A stretch of DNA of 64,000 nt from Mesoterricola silvestris (GTDB lineage: Bacteria > Acidobacteriota > Holophagae > Holophagales > Holophagaceae), in the NCBI RefSeq assembly GCF_030295405.1, contig NZ_AP027080.1, forward strand, positions 4,014,001 through 4,078,000, given 5' to 3'. The notes below the pieces were generated by a model. That model was not told the origin of the DNA and did not search any database. It saw nothing but the letters and a program-made list of their open reading frames with translations. Made by a program: the position numbers and the translations under genes. Below are positions 25,586-54,807 of this stretch, in pieces (position 1 is the first letter of the stretch; every line of letters starts with the position of its first letter).

Positions 25586-25720
25586 CCCGTCTTCCCGACC
25601 CACCCCATCTTGGGATTTCCGTCACCCTCCGCACGGGTTCCAGGACCTCGCAGCGCGCAGGAATGGCGAGCGGTTCCGGTTGAACCCCATTCCGCGGGTG
25701 ATCCCCTCTTTCATCCCCTC

Positions 25721-25855
25721 CATCCTGTTCATCCGTTTCATCCCCGTTCCCGCAGGGCCAGGGCTGGGATGGGTCGGCGCAGGCAGATCAACTGCGCGCC
25801 GCCCCAACTCATCGCTGGCCCTGCGGGAACGGGGATGAAATGGATGAACAGGATG
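25721..25855. repeat. 135-bp hairpin repeat with conserved 53-nt loop, copy 1
   Basis: Arms 25721-25761 and 25815-25855 are inverted repeats of 41 bp with one mismatch. They enclose a 53-nt loop containing GGGATGGGTCGG and GCAGATCAAC. A second copy with the same arm and loop lengths lies at 50433-50567. GATCCCCT and AGGGGATCA words extend the symmetry outward. It occupies the 387-bp gap between two convergent genes (25585 and 25973), in which nothing else is seen. Confidence 0.85.
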
Positions 25856-25972
25856 AAGGGGATCAGCGGTCGAACTCAGGCCGTTCCCGGCTGAGGGGCC
25901 AGACCCTGGTTTTCCTGGAATGACTATCCCCTGGCTTCGGTAGTGATAGCTGGGGTGGGTCGAAAACCTTGA

Positions 25973-28900
25973 CTAGGAGTCCATCGCGGCCCGGACTTCC
26001 CGTGCGAGGTCCTGCAGCGAGAAGGGTTTGCCCATGACCTTCAGCTCCCCTTCCATCACGCCATGGTGCTCCATGATGTCGGCGGTGTACCCGGACATGA
26101 GCAGGCACCGGAGCCCGGGCCGCATCTTCCGCGCGCGCTCCGCCAGTTCCCGTCCGTTCATTTCCGGCATGATCACGTCGGTGAGCAGGAGCCCGATGTC
26201 CAGCTCCGGCTGGGCCAGGAAGGCCAGGGCCTCGCTGGGGGAGGCCGCGGCCAAGGTCCGGTAGCCCAGGCTCCCCAGGAGCATCACGGTGACGTCCAGG
26301 TGCATGGGCTCGTCCTCCACCACCAGGACGCATTCGCGGCCGCCCCGGGACGGGGCCTCGGCATCGGCGCCGGGGAGCTTCTCCACGGGGCCTTCGTGGC
26401 GGGGCAGGTGCACCCGGAAGGTGGTGCCCTGGCCGGGGGCGCTGCGCACCTCGATGAACCCGCCGCTGTGCTTGACGATCCCGTACACCGTGGCGAGGCC
26501 CAGGCCCGTGCCCTTCCCCACGGCCTTGGTGGTGAAGAAGGGCTCGAAGATGTGGCTGAGGACCTCCGCGTCCATGCCCCGGCCGTCGTCGCTCACCTCC
26601 AGGACGACGAAGTCCCCGGGATGGGCCGGCGGGGCCTCCCCGGGACGGACCACGCGGTTCTCGGTGTGGATGGTCATGCGGCCCACGCCGGCGATGGCGT
26701 CCCGGGCGTTAACGGCCAGGTTGGCCAGGATCTGGTCCACCTGGGTGGCATCCATGCGCACCGGCCACAGCCCGTCGCGCTGGGCGTAGTCCAGGGTGAT
26801 GTTCTCGCCGATGAGCCGCGAGAGCATCTGGAGCATGCCGGGGATGGCCTGGTTGAGGTCGATGACCGTGGGCGAGACGGTCTGCTTGCGCGCGAAGGCC
26901 AGGAGCTGGCGGGTGAGCTCCGCGGATCTCATGGCGGCCTTCTTGATCTCCTCGAAGCGGTCCATGGCCTTGCCGGGGGCGCTGTGCAGCATGCCCACCT
27001 CCGCATTGGCCACGATCACCCCCAGCATGTTGTTGAAGTCGTGGGCCACCCCCCCCGCCAACCGTCCGATGGATTCCATCTTCTGGGATTGCTGGATCTC
27101 GGCCTGGAGCGCCTGGCGCTCCCGCTCGGCCTTCACCCGCTCGGTGATATCGGAAAGGGTGAGCAGGAACTCCCCTCCGATGGCGGTGGCGGAAAGGAGC
27201 ACCGTGCGCGCCTCCCCGTCCAGGCAGGCCAGGGTGGCCTCGAAGGGCGCGGCGCCGGGGCCCGCGGCGGCCCGGGCCTCCAGCCAGGCGCGGGCCTGCT
27301 CCCGGCTCGCCGGATCCGGCCAGGCGCGTTCCAGCCACTGGGCCAAGGATCCGATGTCCTCCAGGGTGAACCCGAAGGTGCGGCTGAACTGCCCGTTGAG
27401 GGCCACCATGAGGCCGCCCTCCCCCAGGATGCACATGGGCACGGGGGCGGCCTCGAAGAGCTGCCGGAACCGCAGCCAGCTGTCCTGGAGGGCCTGCTCC
27501 TTGAGCTTGCGCTCCGTGATGTCCTTGGCGATGCCGTAGTGGCCCATGATGCCGCCCTGGTCGTCCCGCAGCGGGCCCTTGGTGACCAGGAAGGTGCGGG
27601 GACCCTGGGGGGTGGCCAGCACCTCCTCCAGGGTGCGCGCGCTGCCCCGCAGCAGGATCGCGGAATCCTCCTCGTGGGCCCCGGGCCCCTGGGCCTCCTT
27701 GCCCAGGATGTCGGCGGCCTTCATGCCGAAGGCCCGTTCCGCTTCGGGGTTGAAGAGCAGGTAGCGCCCCGCCCGGTCCTTGGCGTAGATGGCGTCGCTG
27801 GACGCGGTGGCGATGCCGTCCAGGAGCCGCAGGGCCCGGATCCGCTCCGCCTGGAGGCCCTTGTCCCTTTCGGCCTGCACCAGGATCCGCTGCTGGCGGA
27901 ACATGCGGTCCACCAGCACGGTGATGAAGATGGCCAGCAGCGCCGCCAGGCCGATGACCGCCACCTGGTTCCGGCCCGCGGCGTAGAGCTCGGACTGGTC
28001 CACCTTGGCCACCAGGAACCAATCGGTGCCCCGCACCGGCTGGACCACGCCGGCCACGAGCCCCCCGTTGTAGTCCTTGCCCTTGATGAAGGACCCCAGG
28101 GGCGCGGTGCCGCGAAGGGCCTGGGCGGTGAGCAGTTCGCTCCCCTCCAGGGGTTGGGTCATCTGGATCTGCCCGTCGGGGTTCTGGGGGGAACCGCTGA
28201 GGTACTGCACCTTGTCCCCCAGGCGCCGGAACAGCACCACCTCCCCCGTGGCGGTGGGGACGGGCCACACCTGGAAGCGGGGGTACAGCTGGGACGCGGG
28301 ATCCACCGTCAGGACCAGGATGGGCCCGGGGCGGTCCCCGTCGGGCGCCATGGGCGCCAGGAAATCCAGGCGGAGGGCGCCCCCGGGATCCCGGTAGGGA
28401 CCGACGACGCGGCTGACCCGGTCCCCCATGGCGGCCTTGACCGCCTCCAGCAGTTCGGGGGCCTGGGAGGGCTGCGGGGGGAAGGTCTGCGCGGTGAGCT
28501 GATCGTCGAAGACCCGGAGCACCTGGAAGCCCTTCAGGTCCCGGTAGGTCTCCAGGTTCCCGAAGAGCCGCGCCCGTTCCGCGGCGTTGCCGCTCTTCCG
28601 CCACGCATAGTAGGCCTTGGACCAGAACCGGGAGGAGGAGGCGAAGGCCACGTCCCCGCGCCGCTCCTGCACCCACTCCGACACCTGCAGGGCCTTGCTG
28701 TCGGCGACGGCCTGGAGCCGCGCGGCCTCCGTGAGCTCCAGCTGGCGGTAGACCTGGTGGATGCCCCCCCACGCCAGCGCCAGGATCACCAGCCCCAGGA
28801 TCAGCACGGGGGGCACGAAGCGCCGGACCCGGGTGCGCCGCTCCCGGGAAGGCTCCGGCCGGAGGACGCGCTTCATCATCCGGTACAGCAGGAGGGAGGT

Positions 28901-44728: not shown

Positions 44729-45483
44729 ACCTCCTGGAAGCCCGGGCCATCCGCAAGGCCTACCAGGGCCGGCCCGTCCTGGCCGGGGTGGGCCTGGCCC
44801 TGGGGGAGGGCCGCACCCTGGGCCTGGTGGGCGAGAGCGGCTCGGGCAAGACCACCTTCGGCCGGATCCTCATGGGCCTGGAACGGCCCGACGCGGGCGA
44901 GGTGCTCTACCGGGGCGAGCCCATGCCCCCCGCGGGGAGCCCGGCCTGGCGCGCCCTGCGCCGCCGCATCCAGGCCGTCCACCAGGACCCCTCCGCCGTG
45001 CTCAATCCCTTCTGGTCCATCCAGGAGATCCTGGAGGAACCCCTCCGCGTGCAGGGCCTGGCCCGGGCCCAGCGCCGGGCCCGCATCCCGGCCCTCCTGG
45101 ACCAGGTGGGCCTCCCCGCCGCCGTGGCCCCCCGGCTCCCCGCGGAACTGAGCGGCGGCCAGAAGCAGCGGGTGGTCATCGCCCGGGCCCTCTCCCTCGC
45201 CCCCGACCTGCTCTTCGCGGACGAGCCCGTCTCGGCCCTGGACACCTCCGTGCAGGCCCAGATCCTCAACCTCCTCCTGGAGATCCGCCGGGAGCGCGCC
45301 ATGGCCATGGTGATCGTCTCCCACAACATCGACGTGGTGCGCCACATGGCCGAGCGCACCCTGGTGCTGCGGGACGGGATCATCGTGGAGGAGGGTCCGT
45401 CCCAGGCCCTCTTCGACCACCCGGAGCATCCCTTCACCCGGGCCCTGGTGGGGGCCCTGCCAAGGCTGGCCTCACCCCTGTGA
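44725..45483 (+). CDS. Peptide-type ABC transporter ATPase (DppF/OppF-like)
   Basis: 252 residues. Walker A is GLVGESGSGKTTF, the signature is LSGGQKQR, Walker B is LLFADEPVSALD and the H-loop is MVIVSHNID. It is shorter than typical OppF because it lacks the cysteine-rich C-terminal extension present in its partner. The ATG overlaps the preceding stop. It is the last gene of the operon, and a convergent fragment ends 5 bp beyond it. Confidence 0.94.
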   Translation: MNLLEARAIRKAYQGRPVLAGVGLALGEGRTLGLVGESGSGKTTFGRILMGLERPDAGEVLYRGEPMPPAGSPAWRALRRRIQAVHQDPSAVLNPFWSIQEILEEPLRVQGLARAQRRARIPALLDQVGLPAAVAPRLPAELSGGQKQRVVIARALSLAPDLLFADEPVSALDTSVQAQILNLLLEIRRERAMAMVIVSHNIDVVRHMAERTLVLRDGIIVEEGPSQALFDHPEHPFTRALVGALPRLASPL

Positions 45484-45488
45484 TCCCG

Positions 45489-45890
45489 CTAGAACTCCCC
45501 CCAGCGCACCACCGTGGGCTTGACCACCAGGAGGCGGTCCCTCGTATCCTTCCCGCGGGTCCCCGCCTGGGCGCCACCGCCCTTGCCGTCCTCCCGCAAG
45601 CCACCGAAGACGGCGGTCTCGCCGTCCTTGAGGTGCACGGTGGTCTTCATGGCCCGCTCGTTGGGGCCGGGCTTGCCCGCCTGGAGGGGCTTCTTCCGGA
45701 ATACCATGATGGACGTGGGGTCCAGGGCCTTGTAGAAGAGATCGTTCTGCAGCATGAGATTGTCCAGGGCCCTCCGGAAGTCCATGCCCCGCAGATCCGC
45801 GCAGGTGCTGGCGTCCAGGCCCTCCGCCGACGCGTGGAGGAGGACGGTCACGCCTGACTGTTTGCCCAAGCCCTGGAGGGCCGCGGCCAT
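45489..45890 (-). pseudogene. Secretin-like fragment with STN/N0 domain and joined C-terminal strand
   Basis: 133 residues from the ATG at 45890; the frame is open further upstream but no signal peptide is found. About 1-65 resembles the N0/STN domain of acidobacterial secretins (LGKQSGVTVLLHASAEGL, RALDNLMLQNDLFYKALD, TSIMVFRKK). About 80-133 resembles the secretin barrel end (TVHLKDGETAVFGGLREDG, RLLVVKPTVVR). The middle of the protein, several hundred residues in a full secretin, is missing although the frame is kept. It is probably a relic with an internal deletion and a lost 5' end. Use as a small functional protein cannot be excluded. Confidence 0.55.
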
Positions 45891-45953
45891 GAGGCGTTCC
45901 GTGGCATCCCGCCGGGGGTGGACGCTAGACTTCCCCCGGGAGGTCCCGGGCCG

Positions 45954-46886
45954 GTGCGCATCGCCAACCCCATCTATGACGTCGTGTTCAAGTACCTCCT
46001 CGACGACGAGAAGGTCGCCCGGCTGCTGCTCTCCGCCCTCCTGGGCAAGGAGGTGCTCGAACTGCAGTTCCGGCCCACGGAGGTGCACCACGAGGCGGCC
46101 AGGCCCGACGCCACCCAGCTCCTGGTCCTGCGCCTGGATTTCGCCGCGACGGTGCGCCTGGAGGACGGGAGCCGCAAGCTGGTCCTGATCGAGATCCAGA
46201 AGGCCCGCAGCGCCTGGGACGTGCAGCGTTTCCGGCGCTACCTGGGTTCCAACTACGCCAGCCCGGAGAACGTCTACCTGGATCAGGATGGCCGGAAGCA
46301 GGCCCTGCCCATCGTCACGATCTATTTCCTGGGCGAGGGCCTGGATTGCGTCGACGTGCCGGTGCTGAGGATCAACCGGCAGTACCTGGACCTGGCCACG
46401 GGCGAGGAGGTGCGCATCACGGATCCTTTCGTGGAGGCGCTCACCCACGACGCCATCGTCGTGCAGATCAACCGGCTCAAGAACCGCCGGCGCACCGAAC
46501 TCGAGCGCCTGCTGGAAGTGTTCGACCAGGGCCTGGCGTCCCGCACAGACCCGCACCTGCTGGACATCCTGGAGGAGAACTTCCCGGAAAGGCACCGGGA
46601 GGTGCTTCGCCGCCTCATGCGCGCCAGCGCCGAGCAGGAGGTGCGGGACTGGATGGATGTGGAGGACGATATGCTGGCCGCCTTCCGGGACCAGGCCCGC
46701 GAATCCTCGGACCTGCGGCAGGCGGTGGCTGAGCGGGACAAGGCCTTGGCCGAACAGGCCGAGACCTTGGCCGAACAGGCCGAGAGAGAAAAGGCCCTGG
46801 TCGAGAAGGAAAAGGCCCTGGCCGAGAAGGATGACCTCATCGCCGAACTGAAGAGGCGAGCAGAGCAACCGCCTCCTGGTTCGTAG
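45954..46886 (+). CDS. PD-(D/E)xK nuclease transposase-type (Rpn/PDDEXK_2) protein
   Basis: 310 residues from a GTG at 45954, with GGGAGG upstream; an in-frame GTG further upstream is possible. The N terminus (IANPIYDVVFKYLLDDEKVA) and the core (LDFAATVRLEDGSRKLVLIE then IQKA) match the PDDEXK_2 family, with E and K at the active site. The C terminus (about 250-305) is a charged coiled coil with EKALAEQAETLAEQAE repeats. Homologues are linked to recombination or abandoned transposons. It opens the accessory region. Confidence 0.85.
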   Translation: MRIANPIYDVVFKYLLDDEKVARLLLSALLGKEVLELQFRPTEVHHEAARPDATQLLVLRLDFAATVRLEDGSRKLVLIEIQKARSAWDVQRFRRYLGSNYASPENVYLDQDGRKQALPIVTIYFLGEGLDCVDVPVLRINRQYLDLATGEEVRITDPFVEALTHDAIVVQINRLKNRRRTELERLLEVFDQGLASRTDPHLLDILEENFPERHREVLRRLMRASAEQEVRDWMDVEDDMLAAFRDQARESSDLRQAVAERDKALAEQAETLAEQAEREKALVEKEKALAEKDDLIAELKRRAEQPPPGS

Positions 46887-47023
46887 GCCGGTCCCTTTCG
46901 GGCGGGGACCCTTTGCCTGCCAATGCGATGACCCTTCAGGCGCAGGGGGGGGTTGCGCGGCCCCGTGCCCACCCTACATTGGGCGGGTCGTCATCCGCGC
47001 ACCCCCCCCGCATGGAGGCTGGC

Positions 47024-47284
47024 ATGACCCATGTGATCACGGAACCCTGCATCGGCACCAAGGACACGGCCTGCGTCGTGGTGTGCCCCGTGGACTGCAT
47101 CCACCCCGCCAAGAACGAAGCCGACTTCGACAAGGTGGATCAGCTCTTCATCGATCCCGATAGCTGCATCGACTGCGGCGCTTGCGTGAGCGAGTGCCCG
47201 GTGTCCGCGATCTACCCCCTGGAGGACGTTCCGGGGGAATACGAGGCCTACATCGAAAAGAACGCCGCCCATTTCAAGGGGTAG
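47024..47284 (+). CDS. Ferredoxin with two iron-sulfur clusters
   Basis: 86 residues. GGAGG precedes the ATG by 5 nt. Cysteines lie at 9, 17, 21 and 25 and again at 48, 51, 54 and 58 (CIDCGACVSECP), consistent with a 7Fe or 8Fe FdxA-type ferredoxin. The ITEPCIGTKDTACVVVCPVD start and the PLEDVPGEYEAYIEKNAAHF end are typical. It is a cytoplasmic electron carrier. No redox partner gene is adjacent. Confidence 0.93.
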   Translation: MTHVITEPCIGTKDTACVVVCPVDCIHPAKNEADFDKVDQLFIDPDSCIDCGACVSECPVSAIYPLEDVPGEYEAYIEKNAAHFKG

Positions 47285-47594
47285 GCGGGGTTCCAGGCTG
47301 AGGCGGGAAGGGCCCTGGGGATCGGCGTCGAGCGCGGCAGGTCCCGGACATGAACCGCCGATCTGCCCTTTCGGAGGCCGTCGTTCTCTCGCGGGCGCTC
47401 CGCGGGGATTTGGCCGGGCTGGAAAACGACCCGATGGACATGGTCGTTGAAAGCCTTCGCCGCCATGGGTCGGGATGCTGCTGACGGGATCGCCCTGCGT
47501 GTGTCAAGATGGCACCCTAGAAAGCCCAATCAGCCCATAATCCACGTCCTGATCCCAGGAGCGTCCGGAACAAACAGACCGGGAGGTCCCATCC
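47285..47594. other. 310-bp intergenic gap with one weak small frame
   Basis: A 44-codon frame runs from the ATG at 47350 to TGA at 47484 (MNRRSALSEAVVLSRALRGD at its start). It has no good ribosome site and no recognised family, so I do not call it a gene. Nothing else is seen in this gap. Confidence 0.4.
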
Positions 47595-48200
47595 TTGCGA
47601 TGCTCGAAATGTGAAAGCCTGAACCTGGAGGATGCGACAACCTGCTTCAACTGCGGTGAGATCCTGCCCCGGTCTCCGCACCCCTACGAGGCTCCTGCCG
47701 CGGACCTGACGAGCGGCCCAAGGAAGGGATTCCGAGCCATCTGGATCCTCTGGGGCTGTGGCGGACTTGTCGTTGCCTTCCTGCTCCTTCTGGCCAGTTG
47801 TTTCCTGATGGTCAAAGGCGGGCTTCAAGCCGGAGACCGCGAGTTCGCGCCCGCCGTGGAGTCCTACCTCGCCAAGGTACGGGCAGGCGATTATCACGGT
47901 GCCTACAAGGATTTTGGAGAGGAGCTGCATTCAGCGGTCAAGGAGGAGAACTATCTCGCCCTGGAGAAGGGCTTCCAGGAAAAGCTGGGACCCCTCAAGG
48001 AGAAGAAGCCTCAGTTCGTGCAGATCGGATCCGACCTCAAAGGAAAATGGGGCCGAATCGTCTACACCTGCGAATTTGAAAATGCCAAGGGGACGATATC
48101 CTTCTCCCTGCGTAAAAAGGGCGATTCGTGGTCCATCGTCGAAATACGATACGACTCGCCCCTATTCCTGGAATACCTTAAGGCCAAGGAACCCTCCTGA
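47595..48200 (+). CDS. Zinc-ribbon membrane-anchored protein of unknown function
   Basis: 201 residues from a TTG start with GGGAGG 8 nt upstream. The N-terminal zinc ribbon has CSKC and CFNCG (MRCSKCESLNLEDATTCFNC). One transmembrane helix (about 57-80; GLVVAFLLLLASCFLMV) follows. The extracytoplasmic domain of about 115 residues (YLAKVRAGDYHGAYKDFGEE, RIVYTCEFENAKGTISFSLR) resembles a DUF4019/NTF2-like cone fold. GC is lower than in the flanking core genes. The role is unknown. Confidence 0.7.
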   Translation: MRCSKCESLNLEDATTCFNCGEILPRSPHPYEAPAADLTSGPRKGFRAIWILWGCGGLVVAFLLLLASCFLMVKGGLQAGDREFAPAVESYLAKVRAGDYHGAYKDFGEELHSAVKEENYLALEKGFQEKLGPLKEKKPQFVQIGSDLKGKWGRIVYTCEFENAKGTISFSLRKKGDSWSIVEIRYDSPLFLEYLKAKEPS

Positions 48201-48429
48201 ACTGATTTCCCAGGGGGAGTTGCTCGGGAAAGTTGAATTCAGTGAACAGCGCCCGCGAATTTCTCCTGGGTTGGTTAGTGTCCGCCTCTATTCGGCTACA
48301 CGTCTCCGTGCGCCAGCATTGGCTCCGACCTACTTCCACGGCTAATTGATTGGGGTTTATGGGAATCCTTGCAGAAAAAACCACAAGGCTTATCATTTCT
48401 TAAACATCCCCAAATCGTGAGGTCAGCCA

Positions 48430-49509
48430 ATGGACTTCCTGGACCAGATCAAGCTCCTTGCGTCAAAAGTGCAAACGCAGCTTCCGCACCTCCAAACAGA
48501 GGAAGCAACCAAGAACGCGTTGGTCTTGCCATTCATCAAGGCACTGGGATATGACGTATTTGATCCTACGGAGGTTCGCCCTGAACTTGATGCCGATGTC
48601 GGAATAAAGAAGGGAGAGAAGGTTGACTACGCAATTTTGCGGGACGGGAAACCGATCATTCTTTTCGAGTGCAAAAAAGTCGGAACCGATCTTGGCTTGG
48701 TCCAGTTCTCCCAGCTATTCAGATATTTCACGGTGACGGAGGCTCGTTTTGCCATCCTTACCAACGGCACCCAATACCGGTTCTTCACCGATCTGGAGGA
48801 GCGCAACAAGATGGATGAGCGCCCCTTCCTGGAGTTCGACATCCAGGATTTCAAGGACCAGGACACCGAAGAATTGAAGAAATTCACCAAGCCCGTTTTT
48901 GACGTCAGCACGATTCTCAACACGGCTATGGATTTGAAATACACCAGGGAATTTAAAAGGCTGCTCACAGATGAATTCAACGCCCCATGCGATGAACTGA
49001 TCTCCCTGCTTTCCAGGCGTGTCTATAACGGCAGGATGACCCAGCCAATACGCGAGCAGTTTTCCACCCTGATACGCCGTGCTTTTCATCAGATGATCAG
49101 TGAACGCATTGGCAAAAGTCTGCAGATTGCACTCGAAGGCAATCAAGCCCAAGAACGAGAGTTGGCAACTCCCGATCCCGTCATAGCTGCTCCAACGGAA
49201 GATGAGTCGAAAATCATCACCACCGCCGAGGAGTGGGAGGGATTTTTCATCATCCGGGCAATTCTTTGCCAGGATGTAGATCCAAAGAAGGTGACTATCC
49301 GTGACGGACAAACATACTGCGCCGTCCTTTTCGAGGACAACAACCGGAAACCGTTATGCCGCCTCTGGTTTAATACAGCAAAAAAAGCCATCGGAATATT
49401 CAATGAAGAACGAAAGGAGGAAAAAATTCCGATCCAGGATCTTTCAGACATCTATAAGCATTCAGATCGCCTCCGAAAGACTCTCGACATCTACCTAGCG
49501 AAGGCGTGA
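48430..49509 (+). CDS. Stand-alone HsdR-N-like PD-(D/E)xK restriction nuclease
   Basis: 359 residues, with GAGG 7 nt before the ATG. Residues of about 20-130 form a type I restriction R-subunit N-terminal nuclease fold: E24/E25 in the first helix, D66 in KVDYAIL, E80-x-K82 in ILFECKK, and RFAILTNGTQYRFFTDLEE. The active site is intact. The C-terminal part (about 130-359) has no helicase motifs and is not recognised. No methylase or specificity gene is nearby. Genes of this kind lie in defence islands, so a defence role is an inference. GC is about 50%, well below the core genes. Confidence 0.78.
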   Translation: MDFLDQIKLLASKVQTQLPHLQTEEATKNALVLPFIKALGYDVFDPTEVRPELDADVGIKKGEKVDYAILRDGKPIILFECKKVGTDLGLVQFSQLFRYFTVTEARFAILTNGTQYRFFTDLEERNKMDERPFLEFDIQDFKDQDTEELKKFTKPVFDVSTILNTAMDLKYTREFKRLLTDEFNAPCDELISLLSRRVYNGRMTQPIREQFSTLIRRAFHQMISERIGKSLQIALEGNQAQERELATPDPVIAAPTEDESKIITTAEEWEGFFIIRAILCQDVDPKKVTIRDGQTYCAVLFEDNNRKPLCRLWFNTAKKAIGIFNEERKEEKIPIQDLSDIYKHSDRLRKTLDIYLAKA

Positions 49510-49522
49510 AGGAGGGTGAAGG

Positions 49523-50284
49523 TTGATCTCTGGGCTTGAGGAGGAGGTTTTCGAAACCCGCTTGCTGGCGTTCCGCGACAGCGTTATTTCATCTTCAAAG
49601 GGGACACGGCGAATTCTGCTTCGCAATATCTTAAAACTTTTCGGATTCAGAACACGAACTCAGGAACGGCTTACAACCCTTGCAAAAAGCTTGGACCGGG
49701 TTGGACTCACCGTAGCCCCACCTCTTCTGGACTGTCGCAGGGAGGATTGGGTACACATCTCAGCCCCCAAGGGGCCGTCCATCGAATCGTTGAATGACGG
49801 GCAAGAAGCATGGTTTCAATCCATCACCGCGAAACAGTTTGCCTCCGAGAAGGAAGTGGAGATCCGATTCATCATTCCGCTCCTGGAACGACTTGGATAT
49901 AGCGAGGAAGACCGGGTCGATGGCTGCACGATCGAGATGACAATAGGGAGCAGGAAAGTCAAAGGAGAAGCGGACTTTGTTCTTTACGATGGAACGAACC
50001 GGAGTCGGGACAATGTTCTCCTCATAGTCGAAGCAAAACGAAACGGGACCCGTCTTGAGCAGGCTGTAGAGCAGGCTAGAAGCTATGCCATGTTCCTTGG
50101 GGCACCGTTTTACCTGGTTACCAATGGTGATGATCTTCGTGTTTTCCGATTCAAAAGCGCATTGGAAACCGATGTCGAGGTATTCCAGGGGACCAGGGAA
50201 ACCCTTGGATCCCGCTTCCATCTCCTTCATGGATCAATTTCCAAGTCCCGGGTCGCAGACCTTCGAAGGGTATTGAGGCGTTAA
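49523..50284 (+). CDS. Second HsdR-N-like PD-(D/E)xK nuclease
   Basis: 253 residues from a TTG start with GGAGG upstream, 13 bp after the first nuclease gene. The N-terminal 90 residues are a helical region (LLRNILKLFGFRTRTQERLT). About 105-245 is a PD-(D/E)xK core with E111/E113 (EKEVEIRFIIPLLERLGY), D151 (GEADFVLYD) and E170-x-K172 (LLIVEAKR), then MFLGAPFYLVTNGDDLRVFR. The active site is intact and there is no helicase. The tandem arrangement with the previous gene suggests a two-nuclease unit. Confidence 0.75.
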   Translation: MISGLEEEVFETRLLAFRDSVISSSKGTRRILLRNILKLFGFRTRTQERLTTLAKSLDRVGLTVAPPLLDCRREDWVHISAPKGPSIESLNDGQEAWFQSITAKQFASEKEVEIRFIIPLLERLGYSEEDRVDGCTIEMTIGSRKVKGEADFVLYDGTNRSRDNVLLIVEAKRNGTRLEQAVEQARSYAMFLGAPFYLVTNGDDLRVFRFKSALETDVEVFQGTRETLGSRFHLLHGSISKSRVADLRRVLRR

Positions 50285-50432
50285 GAGTCGGGGTAAGCCT
50301 AAACCCAGAAGCTAGCCCAGGTTTCCTACCCACTCCAGCTTTCACTTGCGAAGCCAGCAGGTGGCTATTCCATGAAAACCACGGACTGGCTCCTCAGCCT
50401 GAAACGGACTGCGTTCGGCGGCTGATCCCCTG

Positions 50433-50567
50433 CATCCTGGGTATCTGTTTCATCACTGTTCTCGCAGGGCCAGAGCAGGGATGGGTCGGTGAATGCAGAT
50501 CAACAGCGCGTCGCCCCACCTCATCGCTGGCCCTGCGGGAACAGGGATGAATCGGATGCACAGGGAT
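50433..50567. repeat. 135-bp hairpin repeat with conserved 53-nt loop, copy 2
   Basis: Arms 50433-50473 and 50527-50567 enclose a 53-nt loop (50474-50526). The loop shares about four fifths of its bases with the copy at 25762-25814, including GGGATGGGTCGG and GCAGATCAAC. The arms here have several mismatches, so this copy looks older. The rest of the 481-bp gap between 50284 and 50766 shows no gene. Confidence 0.82.
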
Positions 50568-50765
50568 TTAGGGGATGAAAGAGGGGATCAACCAAACCAT
50601 CGGCGACTGCTCCGAAGCGACTCTCGCCGGCCTGATCTCCCATCCTTTCTCTCCCCAGGCAGGACAAAAATCCCCATCTTGCGCATCCCATCGAACAGCT
50701 TATTTTTGTTTTTGCCAGAAACGAAAATTATGCCTTCCGTTAATTTGATTCCTGGAATTGGAGCC

Positions 50766-51905
50766 ATGCGTCGAGAGTCAACCGGAACATTCATTGTCCA
50801 TGCCACCCTCGGTGAGGAGGTGCGGGCCTTCTTGCCCAAACCCCTCCCTCCAGACCCTCCCTTGGCCTGGAACCCATCCCTGCTCCTGAGGCACCAGAAG
50901 GCGTCAACCGCCCTCGGCAGGCTGGATGGGGTCACGACCTTGCTTCCCGACCCGACGCTGTTTCTCTACAGCTACGTCCGAAAGGAAGCGGTGCTGTCTT
51001 CCCAGATCGAAGGCACTCAGTCATCCCTTTCGGATCTCCTTGCCTATGAAAACCGATTGGCGCCAGGCGTCCCCATGGAAGACGTGGTGGAAGTCTCGAA
51101 CTACGTGGCCGCCCTTGATCATGGGTTGAAACGACTGAGGGATGGATTCCCTCTCTGCCTCAGGCTGGTAAGGGAGATTCACGAGGTACTGCTTTCCAGA
51201 GGCCGGGGCAGCGGCAAGATGCCCGGTGAATTCCGGCGTTCCCAGAACTGGATTGGCGGAAGCCGACCCGGGAACGCCGCCTTTGTGCCCCCTCCCCACG
51301 AATCGCTCCCGGATTGCCTTTCAGCATGGGAAAGATTCCTCCACTCCGATCTGGACCCGCTGACCAAGGCAGCCCTGGCCCACCTCCAATTCGAAACGCT
51401 CCACCCTTTCCTGGATGGCAACGGCCGAGTTGGCCGCCTTCTGATCTCTCTTCTCCTCAGCCAAGAGGGGGTCCTGCGCGAGCCCATGCTCTATTTGAGC
51501 CTATTCCTGAAGAAGCATCGGTCCCATTACTACGCCCTCCTTCAATCCGTCAGGGAGGATGGGGACTGGGAACGATGGTTGGACTTCATGTTTCAAGGAA
51601 TGGCTGAAACCGCCGAGGGCGCCGTGAGCGTGGCCAAAAGGTTGCTCGCCCAATTTGCCGAAGACCGGCAGAAGCTACAAACGATCGGGGTGCCAGCCTC
51701 CGCATTCCAGGTGCACCACTACGTGCAAAAGCATCCCATCGCCTCATCGTCGGTGCTTTCCCAATCCGAAAGGTTGGCCCCATCGACCATCAACAGGGCC
51801 TTCGATCAGCTCGCCAAGGCCGGGCTTCTGAGGGAAATTACCGGAGGCGCAAGAAATCGTCTCTTCGCCTACGACAAAGTTTTGGAGATCCTCAATGAAG
51901 GGTAG
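50766..51905 (+). CDS. Fic family protein (putative AMPylase, class II)
   Basis: 379 residues from the ATG at 50766 (an ATG at 50730 is possible). The Fic motif is complete: HPFLDGNGRVGR at about 213-224. An inhibitory helix motif S78-x3-E82-G83 (SSQIEG) lies upstream, as in class II Fic proteins that block their own activity. The C terminus (about 310-379) is a winged helix (SERLAPSTINRAFDQLAKAG). The family transfers AMP or other nucleotides to protein targets, and no antitoxin partner is visible. The stop codon lies inside a degenerate tRNA-Arg copy. Confidence 0.92.
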   Translation: MRRESTGTFIVHATLGEEVRAFLPKPLPPDPPLAWNPSLLLRHQKASTALGRLDGVTTLLPDPTLFLYSYVRKEAVLSSQIEGTQSSLSDLLAYENRLAPGVPMEDVVEVSNYVAALDHGLKRLRDGFPLCLRLVREIHEVLLSRGRGSGKMPGEFRRSQNWIGGSRPGNAAFVPPPHESLPDCLSAWERFLHSDLDPLTKAALAHLQFETLHPFLDGNGRVGRLLISLLLSQEGVLREPMLYLSLFLKKHRSHYYALLQSVREDGDWERWLDFMFQGMAETAEGAVSVAKRLLAQFAEDRQKLQTIGVPASAFQVHHYVQKHPIASSSVLSQSERLAPSTINRAFDQLAKAGLLREITGGARNRLFAYDKVLEILNEG

Positions 51906-51959
51906 AGCGAACGCCTCCTAATCGGTAGGTTGGCAGTTCAATTCTGCCCGGGACCACCA
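51901..51959 (+). pseudogene. Degenerate tRNA-Arg(CCT) fragment overlapping the Fic gene end
   Basis: 59 bp match the tRNA-Arg at 54675-54750 from the D-arm to the encoded CCA, including the CTCCTAA anticodon loop and the full T-arm, but on the opposite strand. The acceptor 5' half is missing. Anticodon-stem changes (AACGC with TCGGT) break two pairs, so it cannot be functional. It starts the left inverted repeat, and the Fic stop TAG falls within its first bases. Confidence 0.8.
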
Positions 51960-52333
51960 ACCCGAGACGAAGCCCGAAACCGTGAGGGGAGCGGTTTTCC
52001 CATTTCTGGAGACCACCTTGTGGGTTGCCTTCCTCCGGGTATTTTCAGAAATTCCTCCTGGATTTTGGGGTCACGCCGGGGTCCAGACGACTTGGGAGAA
52101 TTCAGGAAATGCCGATGGGAACATGGCTTGAGGAGTTCTCCAGGTTGTTACCAATGGCCCCCCCAATGGAGCTTGAGCCAGAGGCTCGAGGAGAGCAGAA
52201 TATTTTGAAATCCATGTTTCCCTGATTTCCTGGTGGAGTTGGAGGATCTAGAAGTTATCCTTCCACTTGATTTGAGGAAGGTCCTGAACCCATGGAGTTA
52301 CCGAGCCTTCTGAGGATCTAACCTCACCTTCTC
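51901..52333 (+). repeat. Left copy of ~430-bp tRNA-linked inverted repeat
   Basis: Reading forward, the sequence from the tRNA-like start through GACGAAGCCCG, TTTCTGGAGACCACC, AATGCCGATGGGAACA, AAATCCATGTTTCCCTG and TTGATTTGAGGAAGGTCC aligns, with scattered changes, to the minus strand of 54734-54304. Identity is roughly three quarters to four fifths by eye. It fills most of the 531-bp gap between the Fic gene and the NTPase gene. No gene is supported in it. Confidence 0.82.
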
Positions 52334-52436
52334 CCCTTCAGCTTATTGGCCCTCCTCTGGCTTCCAGCCTGTTAATCTAATTCACAATTGCTTTGCCTGT
52401 GATCTTCGAGTGTCCTTCTATTGAAATGGAGAGTTC

Positions 52437-54236
52437 ATGTCCAGGACGTTAAAGCATCCAGATTTATACCCCTTGATCTGTAAGCTCTCTCCAAGAGCCG
52501 AAAAGCTCGATAAAGACGTAGTTACAAAGGCCTTTGTGGATGCCGGATATCTTCAGCGAATCTTATGCCCAACAACTCAATTTGTCGAAGGGAGGCGGGG
52601 AACCGGGAAAAGCCACCTGTTCTTGTATTTAAACGACTATGTTAACACAGGCGCAGCCGGAGAATCTGCTTTGTCTGCATATATCGATTCCAGAGATATT
52701 AAGCAGGAGTCTGGACAAGATGAAGCGCCTTCAAAGGAATATGCTTCACGCTTTTTTAGGAAATTCTTGCAAACGCTTCTTCTTCAACTCCGGGTGCTTG
52801 ACGCAAGCGTGCTACTTCACAACGAATTCACAAGGGCCAATACCGGCTATGACTTAATCGTAAAAAGGCGAAGCGCTGAAGCGCTCGATCAAATTGAGAA
52901 ATGTATACAAGGCAAAAAAATTGAAACTTCCCGACGATTTTCGGAAAACAAGAAAACCTTAAGAGATGTCAAATCAAAGCGAGGAATCGAACTTAACCTT
53001 CTCACAGGAAGCGTGCTTCCTTCAGCAAAACTGGAAGCAAATTCGAGCAATGAATTTCAGAATTCTGAAAACTCTGATGTTTCTCATAGTTATGAAATTG
53101 TATTGGATTTCAGCAGCATCCGAGATTCTATGGAGTCATTTTTAAAAATTAACGATATTTCAATTTTTTACATTTTAATTGATGAATGGAGCTCTGTTCC
53201 GCTGCCCGTTCAACCATATTTTGCAGAATATATCAAGCGTTGCTTTTCGCCTTCTTCATTCTTTTCAGTAAAAATTGCTATTCTGCCATTTCAAACTAAA
53301 TTTTCAGATATGAAAGGCCAAGATATTATTGGATTTGAAAAGACTGCTGATATTTTTGCTGCAATCGATCTAGATGGGGAATTGCTGTATGGTAGCCATC
53401 CGGAACCTTGCAGGGTCCATATGACTAACTTATTATTTAAACATCTCAAGCATATCGCAGAAACATACTACCCCAAATCCACTCTTGATATTGGATCAAA
53501 TCCCGAAAAGTCGATATCGCAATTACTCAATCCACAAGCAATAGAAAGAATGCTTGTATTTTCACAAGGGAACTCACGAGATTTTCTTCAGCTATTTCAG
53601 GCAAGCTTTATTCATCATTATAATCGTGATCATGAAATGTCAGATTTAATCAATTCAAAGGACGTCGAGATTGCCGCAAAGGAACTTGGAGCAGAGAAGG
53701 TTGAGAATCTTCAACCAAATAGGGATGCTTATATATTATTCAATTCAATAATTCACCACGTGCTTCAGGTCAATCGAAAACACGCATTTATCCTAGATTC
53801 CAAGTTTCAGCATAATCCGCTATTTGCCTTTCTTGTTCACAACCGGGCGCTTCATGTATGGGACAAGAGTTATTCTTCCCCTTCTTCAAAGGGCAAGCGT
53901 TTCTTGGTCGTTGCTATTGATCAGGCCATCATTGTTGAGCACCTAAAAAGTCCAAGCTATAGAAAATTGTTTGGTCTCCCATTCACGGAGGAACAACAGG
54001 AGGAATTAAAATCTGTATCCGAAGACTCGAACCTAGCCGATCAAATCATGACATACGACAAGCCGGATAAGCGATCCGCGAGATATGTGGCACTTCCTGA
54101 AGAAATATTTGTCATTGACCAAACAAAAACTTGTCCAAATTGCCAATCTATCATTGACCAAAATCATCCAGTTTATAAAAAGGCGAATCTTTGTCCGAAG
54201 TGTGGAGAGTTGATCCAATTAACACTTCAGGGCTGA
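52437..54236 (+). CDS. AT-rich P-loop NTPase (AAA/ORC-CDC6-like) with C-terminal zinc ribbon
   Basis: 599 residues. Walker A is EGRRGTGKSHLF (K58, S59), following QLPTTQFV-type sequence. A Walker B-like strand FYILIDEWSS lies near 245. FSQGNSRDFLQLF near 380 is the sensor-2-type helix seen in ORC/CDC6-like AAA proteins. The C terminus carries a zinc ribbon (CPNCQ and CPKCG, about 563-592). GGAGAG precedes the ATG. GC is about 40% by eye against about 70% in the core genome, a sign of transfer. It is the only gene between the two tRNA-linked inverted repeats. DNA-linked ATPase activity, perhaps in defence, is an inference. Confidence 0.75.
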   Translation: MSRTLKHPDLYPLICKLSPRAEKLDKDVVTKAFVDAGYLQRILCPTTQFVEGRRGTGKSHLFLYLNDYVNTGAAGESALSAYIDSRDIKQESGQDEAPSKEYASRFFRKFLQTLLLQLRVLDASVLLHNEFTRANTGYDLIVKRRSAEALDQIEKCIQGKKIETSRRFSENKKTLRDVKSKRGIELNLLTGSVLPSAKLEANSSNEFQNSENSDVSHSYEIVLDFSSIRDSMESFLKINDISIFYILIDEWSSVPLPVQPYFAEYIKRCFSPSSFFSVKIAILPFQTKFSDMKGQDIIGFEKTADIFAAIDLDGELLYGSHPEPCRVHMTNLLFKHLKHIAETYYPKSTLDIGSNPEKSISQLLNPQAIERMLVFSQGNSRDFLQLFQASFIHHYNRDHEMSDLINSKDVEIAAKELGAEKVENLQPNRDAYILFNSIIHHVLQVNRKHAFILDSKFQHNPLFAFLVHNRALHVWDKSYSSPSSKGKRFLVVAIDQAIIVEHLKSPSYRKLFGLPFTEEQQEELKSVSEDSNLADQIMTYDKPDKRSARYVALPEEIFVIDQTKTCPNCQSIIDQNHPVYKKANLCPKCGELIQLTLQG

Positions 54237-54303
54237 TTGACTTGTTCATTGTTATGGGTCCGGAAGTCCAGAGGAAGACCAACAACCTGACGGGGGAGAA
54301 GTT

Positions 54304-54734
54304 GAGGTTTGAACGTCAGGAGGCTAGGTAGATATAGGGGTTCAGGACCTTCCTCAAATCAAGGGGAAGGAGAACCTCCGATTCCTCCTACTTCACCACG
54401 AATCCAGGGAAACATGGATTTAAAATTAATCTTCTCCCCTAGAGCCTCTGACTCAAGTTCGTTCGGGGGTGGATGGTTCCACTGGTGACAACCTGGAGGA
54501 CTCCTCAAGCCGTGTTCCCATCGGCATTTCTTAAATCCTCCGCAGTCGGCGTGACCCTGGCGTGATCTCAAAATCCAGGAAGGATTTCTGAAAACCCCGG
54601 GAGGAAGGAAAACCACAAAGTGGTCTCCAGAAATAGGAAAGCCCGTCCCCTCGCGGTTCCGGGCCTCTTCAGGCTGGTGGTCCCGGGCAGAATTGAACTG
54701 CCGACCTACCGCTTAGGAGGCGGTCGCTCTATCC
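54304..54734 (-). repeat. Right copy of ~430-bp tRNA-linked inverted repeat
   Basis: The minus strand from inside tRNA-Arg through its 3' flank matches the plus strand at 51901-52333. Shared structured words are ATTTCTG...CAGAAAT (54584-54634 here, 52002-52052 in the left copy) and CCATGTTTCCC. It fills the gap between the NTPase gene and the tRNA, which holds no supported gene. Confidence 0.82.
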
Positions 54735-54750
54735 CCTGAGCTACGGGACC
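54675..54750 (-). tRNA. tRNA-Arg (anticodon CCT)
   Basis: A full cloverleaf: acceptor GGTCCCG/CGGGACC, D-arm GCTC/GAGC, anticodon stem ACCGC/GCGGT with loop CTCCTAA (anticodon CCT, reading AGG), variable AGGTC, T-arm GGCAG/CTGCC, discriminator A and encoded CCA (54675-54677). Confidence 0.96.
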
Positions 54751-54807
54751 TATTTTCAGCCAACGGCCATTGTAGCCTGAAACCCGGGCCCTGGGGATCC
54801 CGCGGCC

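Follow-up and report, generated by a model that had tools for sequence, protein, structure and literature searches.

Genomic islands with tyrosine integrases that are centred on the anticodon of a tRNA gene form a known class (PMC4383910). In the islands catalogued with Islander, the core consists of the 3' part of the tRNA, starting from the anticodon arm, and the tRNA is kept intact; islands may be stacked at one tRNA, with a displaced direct copy of it, and 125 tandem arrays with at least two members at one tRNA have been reported, for each member of which Islander demands an integrase of its own. To this main tRNA-island finder, islands with an inverted tRNA and no integrase are false positives, and its integrase and orientation filters would reject such a configuration (PMC4383910). 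The tRNA-Arg(CCT) locus of Mesoterricola silvestris shares with these islands the core position, the intact tRNA, the stacking and the displaced direct copy, and with the tandem arrays the presence of several tRNA-derived fragments. In contrast to them, the tRNA copy beside its ATPase gene is inverted, its fragments alternate in strand (+, −, +, −) and no integrase accompanies it.

The window, a stretch of 64,000 nucleotides, contains the following features at this locus.

45918–46886, plus strand: gene for a 322-aa protein, its 3' end formed by a tRNA fragment (sequence comparison)
46854–46910, plus strand: tRNA-Arg fragment that is the 3' end of the 322-aa gene (score 40)
47340–47402, minus strand: degenerate tRNA-Arg copy, direct relative to the intact tRNA (score 58)
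47595–48200, plus strand: small protein with weak similarity to DUF3887/DUF4019 (Pfam)
48430–49509, plus strand: second stand-alone HSDR_N-like protein (Pfam)
49523–50284, plus strand: stand-alone HSDR_N-like protein, restriction R-subunit N-terminal domain (Pfam)
50817–51905, plus strand: SoFic-type Fic adenylyltransferase with its stop codon in tRNA-like sequence (PADLOC SoFic, 390.6 bits)
51900–52366, plus strand: left arm of the inverted repeat, tRNA positions 17–76 and about 407 bp of flank (alignment)
52437–54236, plus strand: 599-aa P-loop ATPase, ORC-CDC6-like (PF24389, 39 bits, cut-off 27)
54262–54734, minus strand: right arm of the inverted repeat, the tRNA 3' part, a terminator-like hairpin and about 410 bp of flank, a putative P' arm (alignment)
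54548–54566, minus strand: paired repeat ATCACGCC-AGG-GTCACGCC, a candidate integrase arm-type site 109–127 bp past the tRNA 3' end (exact match)
54675–54750, minus strand: intact tRNA-Arg(CCT), the integration target, adjoining a glucosamine-6-phosphate isomerase-like gene (ARAGORN)

The only tRNA that ARAGORN reports in the window is tRNA-Arg(CCT). Its isomerase-like neighbour is also found in genomes G066, G067 and G070, whereas what follows the tRNA changes from genome to genome in almost all of those compared; throughout the family, tRNA-Arg(CCT) is a hotspot for islands. Because the backbone of the close relative G070 matches up to position 45469 and again from 54672, the stretch from 45470 to 54672 is a variable segment. 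The locus holds four tRNA copies. The fragment beside the ATPase gene (51900–51959, plus strand) is oriented opposite to the tRNA, and the copy at 47340–47402 has the same orientation as the tRNA. The latter copy and the fragment at 46854–46910, both unnoticed in the earlier note, were found in a scan for tRNA relics in which shuffled sequence reached a maximum score of 32 per 13 kb. Together with the intact tRNA, the direct copy encloses 7.3 kb of low-GC DNA; low GC begins at about 47.4 kb and stops at the tRNA, and the copy is probably the old left boundary of stacked islands. The expectation, voiced in the earlier note, that tRNA-targeted islands normally leave direct repeats was right; a degenerate direct copy is likewise present at this locus. 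Between the two relics lies a ferredoxin gene (47024–47284), which has an 81% orthologue elsewhere in G070 and weak or no matches in other members of the genus.

No integrase was found near the element, as had been noted from the sequence alone: the nearest Phage_integrase match in the genome is about 344 kb away, and the best match in this genome to the integrase type of the G051 island described below, also about 344 kb away, is only 33% identical. Since no integrase stands at the island, we classify it as a remnant rather than a functional element; with its integrase lost, the segment can probably no longer move.

The inverted repeat was evaluated by aligning 51860–52440 with the reverse complement of 54200–54800. 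The local alignment score was 516, with a peak of 28 among 200 shuffles, and the arms, 51900–52366 on the plus strand and 54734–54262 on the minus strand, align over 464 columns, 387 of which are identical (83.4%) and 12 of which contain gaps. The proposal of repeats of about 430 bp was therefore sound and slightly too short; identity runs some 400 bp past the tRNA and is not confined to it. It is higher in the tRNA part (56/60, 93%) than in the flanking part of the arms (331/404, 81.9%; Fisher p = 0.025). The left arm, next to the Fic gene, starts at tRNA position 17 on the strand opposite to the intact tRNA and lacks the first 16 nt; the right arm starts within the tRNA, both as previously described. 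Of the limits first given for the whole unit, 51901–54750, the right-hand one is correct as the 5' end of the tRNA and not as the end of the repeat, which is at 54734. A single gene, the ATPase, fills the interior almost exactly, leaving gaps of 70 bp and 26 bp to the arms. Its GC content is 40%, compared with 49–59% for the arms and neighbours and values mostly near 70% for the window, in agreement with the earlier description of one AT-rich P-loop NTPase gene between the repeats.

No further copy of the arms was found in this genome, in 92 other genomes of the class or in searches of plasmids and phages. A 47-bp arm match in G069 was judged to be due to chance once its sequence was read. The arms do not behave as coding sequence, as indels leave no shared open reading frame and the third-position bias of substitutions is not strong; nor do they behave as a structured RNA, since their fold is not unusual (z = −0.57) and an Rfam family matches only the tRNA part.

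The arms were compared with the island of G051, which belongs to genus g4 of the same family. This 18-kb island resides in the same tRNA, with a 380-aa integrase beside the displaced tRNA copy; at the far end, the homology between the displaced copy and the tRNA starts exactly at CGCCTCCTAAGC, in the anticodon stem. The right arm of M. silvestris shares with it the paired-repeat motif at a matching offset and a terminator-like hairpin that resembles that of genus g4, whereas G051 has direct att repeats and a complete integrase. Beyond the motif and the hairpin, the arm has no match in relatives. In G051, the island's direct repeat (L039, 18600–19076 and 150–622) reaches 78 bp past the tRNA and takes in the hairpin, so that a duplicate of the terminator belonging to the tRNA is part of the element. 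The core sequence also occurs in 22 viral contigs and, among the matches listed, in genome contigs of unrelated taxa.

The motif pattern, RTCACGCS-NRR-RTCACGCS, was derived by comparing the right arm with DNA upstream of integrase genes; it was thus drawn partly from the sequence under study, and the tRNA-near copy of G051 was not used in writing it. Scans of whole genomes found it once in the 5-Mb genome of M. silvestris (in the right arm), twice in G051, once in G066 and not at all in G069 or G070, and the reversed pattern used as a control did not occur in any of the five. One G051 copy lies 104–122 bp past the tRNA and the other between the displaced core and the integrase; the G066 copy is upstream of an integrase N-terminal fragment. 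The left arm carries the motif at the same offset and in the same orientation, with three mismatches. We infer that the motif binds the integrase and, because it is shared at a matching offset, interpret each arm as a core with the P' arm of a single integrase family, a putative assignment for which the evidence is a single 19-bp motif.

Other relatives display further arrangements at this tRNA. In G070, two intact tRNA copies in direct orientation enclose an island of 21.7 kb, whose tyrosine integrase gene starts about 30 bp from the second copy. In G066, a sister species, 47 bp separate the intact tRNA from an inverted tRNA fragment, and no ATPase gene is present; two species of the genus thus have inverted tRNA copies at the locus, one with the ATPase and one without it. 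Beside tRNA-Arg, G066 has the 322-aa gene in four tandem copies (L035, 4608–9548), and the last of them runs into the inverted fragment. Integrase N-terminal fragments that resemble the G051 integrase are located upstream of three of these four copies as well as upstream of the Fic gene; for those beside the 322-aa gene, identity to the G051 enzyme is 67% over 55 aa. The strand relation of the core to the integrase fragment in G066 is opposite to that in G051. An integrase of the G051 type, 79% identical over 280 aa, is also encoded at the 5' end of the reverse complement of L142 (G069:C80). The core upstream of it resembles a different tRNA with the anticodon loop CTTGTAA, perhaps tRNA-Thr, which suggests a single integrase family with several tRNA targets.

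Two cargo genes end in tRNA-like sequence. The Fic gene, which had been recognized earlier as the neighbour of the left repeat, and its G066 orthologue, located about 12 kb from the same tRNA, both end in LNEG*, with the TAG stop codon within tRNA-like sequence (GGRTAGAGCG). In eight further Fic orthologues, which lie away from the locus, the ending is EGTE followed by varying residues. This comparison of Fic 3' ends disfavours a chance likeness to the tRNA. The 322-aa gene, which we take to be nuclease- or transposase-like, has no match in Pfam or NCBIfam searches. It has a tRNA-like 3' end only at the tRNA-Arg locus, in M. silvestris and in all four G066 copies, and the paralogues elsewhere lack it. 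Cargo genes with their stop codon in tRNA-like attachment sequence are therefore found at the same locus in two species. The small DUF3887/DUF4019-like protein has a G066 homologue located elsewhere, away from the tRNA. Between the HSDR_N and Fic genes, a partly palindromic repeat of about 270 bp (50311–50589) has a second copy in the window (25696–25977) and dozens in the genome, with 80 matched pieces when both strands of the palindrome are counted; matches in G066, G068 and G070 are fewer and shorter. In appearance, the repeat resembles MITE or REP-type families.

The ATPase contains a Walker A motif (GRRGTGKS), a Walker B-like motif (ILIDEW) and a C-terminal CxxC..CxxC arrangement. In the comparison with ORC-CDC6-like families that the earlier note had suggested, it matches PF24389 above the Pfam gathering cut-off, in a match that spans only profile positions 7–52 of 571, the P-loop region. 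The nearest known proteins are the PF24389 and Sll1717 family P-loop ATPases and the anti-phage protein DS-41, one of the experimentally protective systems of the DefensePredictor study (PMC13092281). The Sll1717 and DS41_1 models have weak similarity to it; in contrast to their members, the ATPase scores far below the curated cut-offs (29.3 bits for DS-41, where NCBIfam requires 370) and has the additional C-terminal CxxC pairs. No PADLOC family matches it either. A full-length match was found in only one of 77 family genomes, namely its own, so that it is not a core gene. A degenerate-pattern scan of genomes and viral contigs found no relatives; tblastn found none in phages and recovered plasmid proteins with 26–27% identity, mostly from Burkholderia glumae. 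Single-sequence structure prediction gave no usable fold (mean pLDDT 35). Because the stand-alone restriction-subunit-like proteins and SoFic adjoin the ATPase, an anti-phage role for it is plausible; the cargo, including the ATPase, is probably of the defence type.

Taken as a whole, the locus is probably a decayed and rearranged remnant of stacked tRNA-Arg(CCT) islands in which the ATPase gene lies between two opposed att regions. A tyrosine integrase of the G051 kind would recombine at the anticodon arm of the tRNA, and with every insertion would come the 3' part of the tRNA as core, joined to a P' arm in which the arm-type integrase-binding site lies some 109 bp downstream. What is left would be a pair of these units, opposed around one ATPase gene and with arms that differ by about 18%, and the integrase would have been lost. 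We favour, as the simplest history, stacked insertion followed by inversion. The starting state would be a tandem of tRNA, P' arm, cargo (TM, two HSDR_N genes, Fic), core, P' arm, ATPase and the old tRNA copy at 47340, with the tRNA, the inner core and the old copy all direct and the cargo genes co-oriented with the tRNA. A single inversion of about 47.4–54.25 kb, which we infer, would then yield the present map. No homology was found at the two presumed ends of the inversion, and a homology-mediated event was accordingly rejected; two insertions in opposite directions would be an alternative route. The core of G066 that is inverted relative to its integrase fragment is not accounted for by simple stacking. 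Of the three layouts that had been considered for the segment, two opposed insertions, or an inverted tandem, fit best because both arms consist of a tRNA core and an integrase P' arm.

An inverted duplication is a less probable origin: template switching during replication would have copied the tRNA 3' part and about 410 bp back as a palindrome, the unstable center of which the ATPase gene later entered. The tight fit of the ATPase gene between the arms and its lower GC content agree with this scenario, as does the inverted fragment close to the same tRNA in G066; however, none of the arm sequence of M. silvestris recurs in the G066 palindrome, the att motif on both arms is explicable without duplication, and the arms start at Fic and within the tRNA, as attachment junctions do. 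It is improbable, for its part, that the integrase family joins att sites in both orientations and so builds tRNA-based cassette arrays in which the tRNA supplies cargo stop codons. Such two-way joining might be aided by the anticodon stem, which is mirror-symmetric (ACCGC-N7-GCGGT), and the four tandem tRNA-ended copies of G066, three of them after an integrase fragment, fit this scheme together with the inverted tRNA fragment.

An invertible switch, in which an integrase acting in trans would flip the ATPase segment between the opposed cores and thereby alter expression, had also been envisaged, and the 7-base overlap of the anticodon loop, CTCCTAA, is indeed identical in both inverted cores. 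Such activity is nevertheless very unlikely and drew no support: the genome has no integrase of the G051 type, a flip would join the 3' half of the left copy to tRNA-Arg(CCT) and so place a C-T mismatch beside the anticodon loop, and the alternative orientation was not seen in the one assembly. Least likely is a transposon-like cassette with the ATPase as mobile cargo and the 470-bp inverted repeats as ends recognized by a transposase. The close flanking of a single gene by inverted repeats would suit it, but the outer ends lie inside tRNA sequence, unlike a transposon terminus, and no other copy exists in this genome, the 92 class genomes, plasmids or phages. The absence of the repeat–ATPase unit from those 92 genomes led us to reject an inverted-repeat transposon and a recurrent or MITE-like cassette. 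The earlier idea of a non-autonomous cassette is likewise weakened, because no other class genome contains the arm, the ATPase has no full-length relative in the family and the inverted fragment of G066 comes without an ATPase.

For decayed, stacked islands at tRNA-Arg(CCT), the locus suggests that at least one inverted, integrase-less configuration of the kind discarded by island finders is genuine, and that a conserved arm-type motif can serve to anchor it. Anchoring by such motifs would help to detect decayed islands that have stayed hidden, together with the defence-type genes they carry. The tRNA-derived stop codons of the cargo genes make it worth asking whether recombination by this integrase family can proceed in both orientations.
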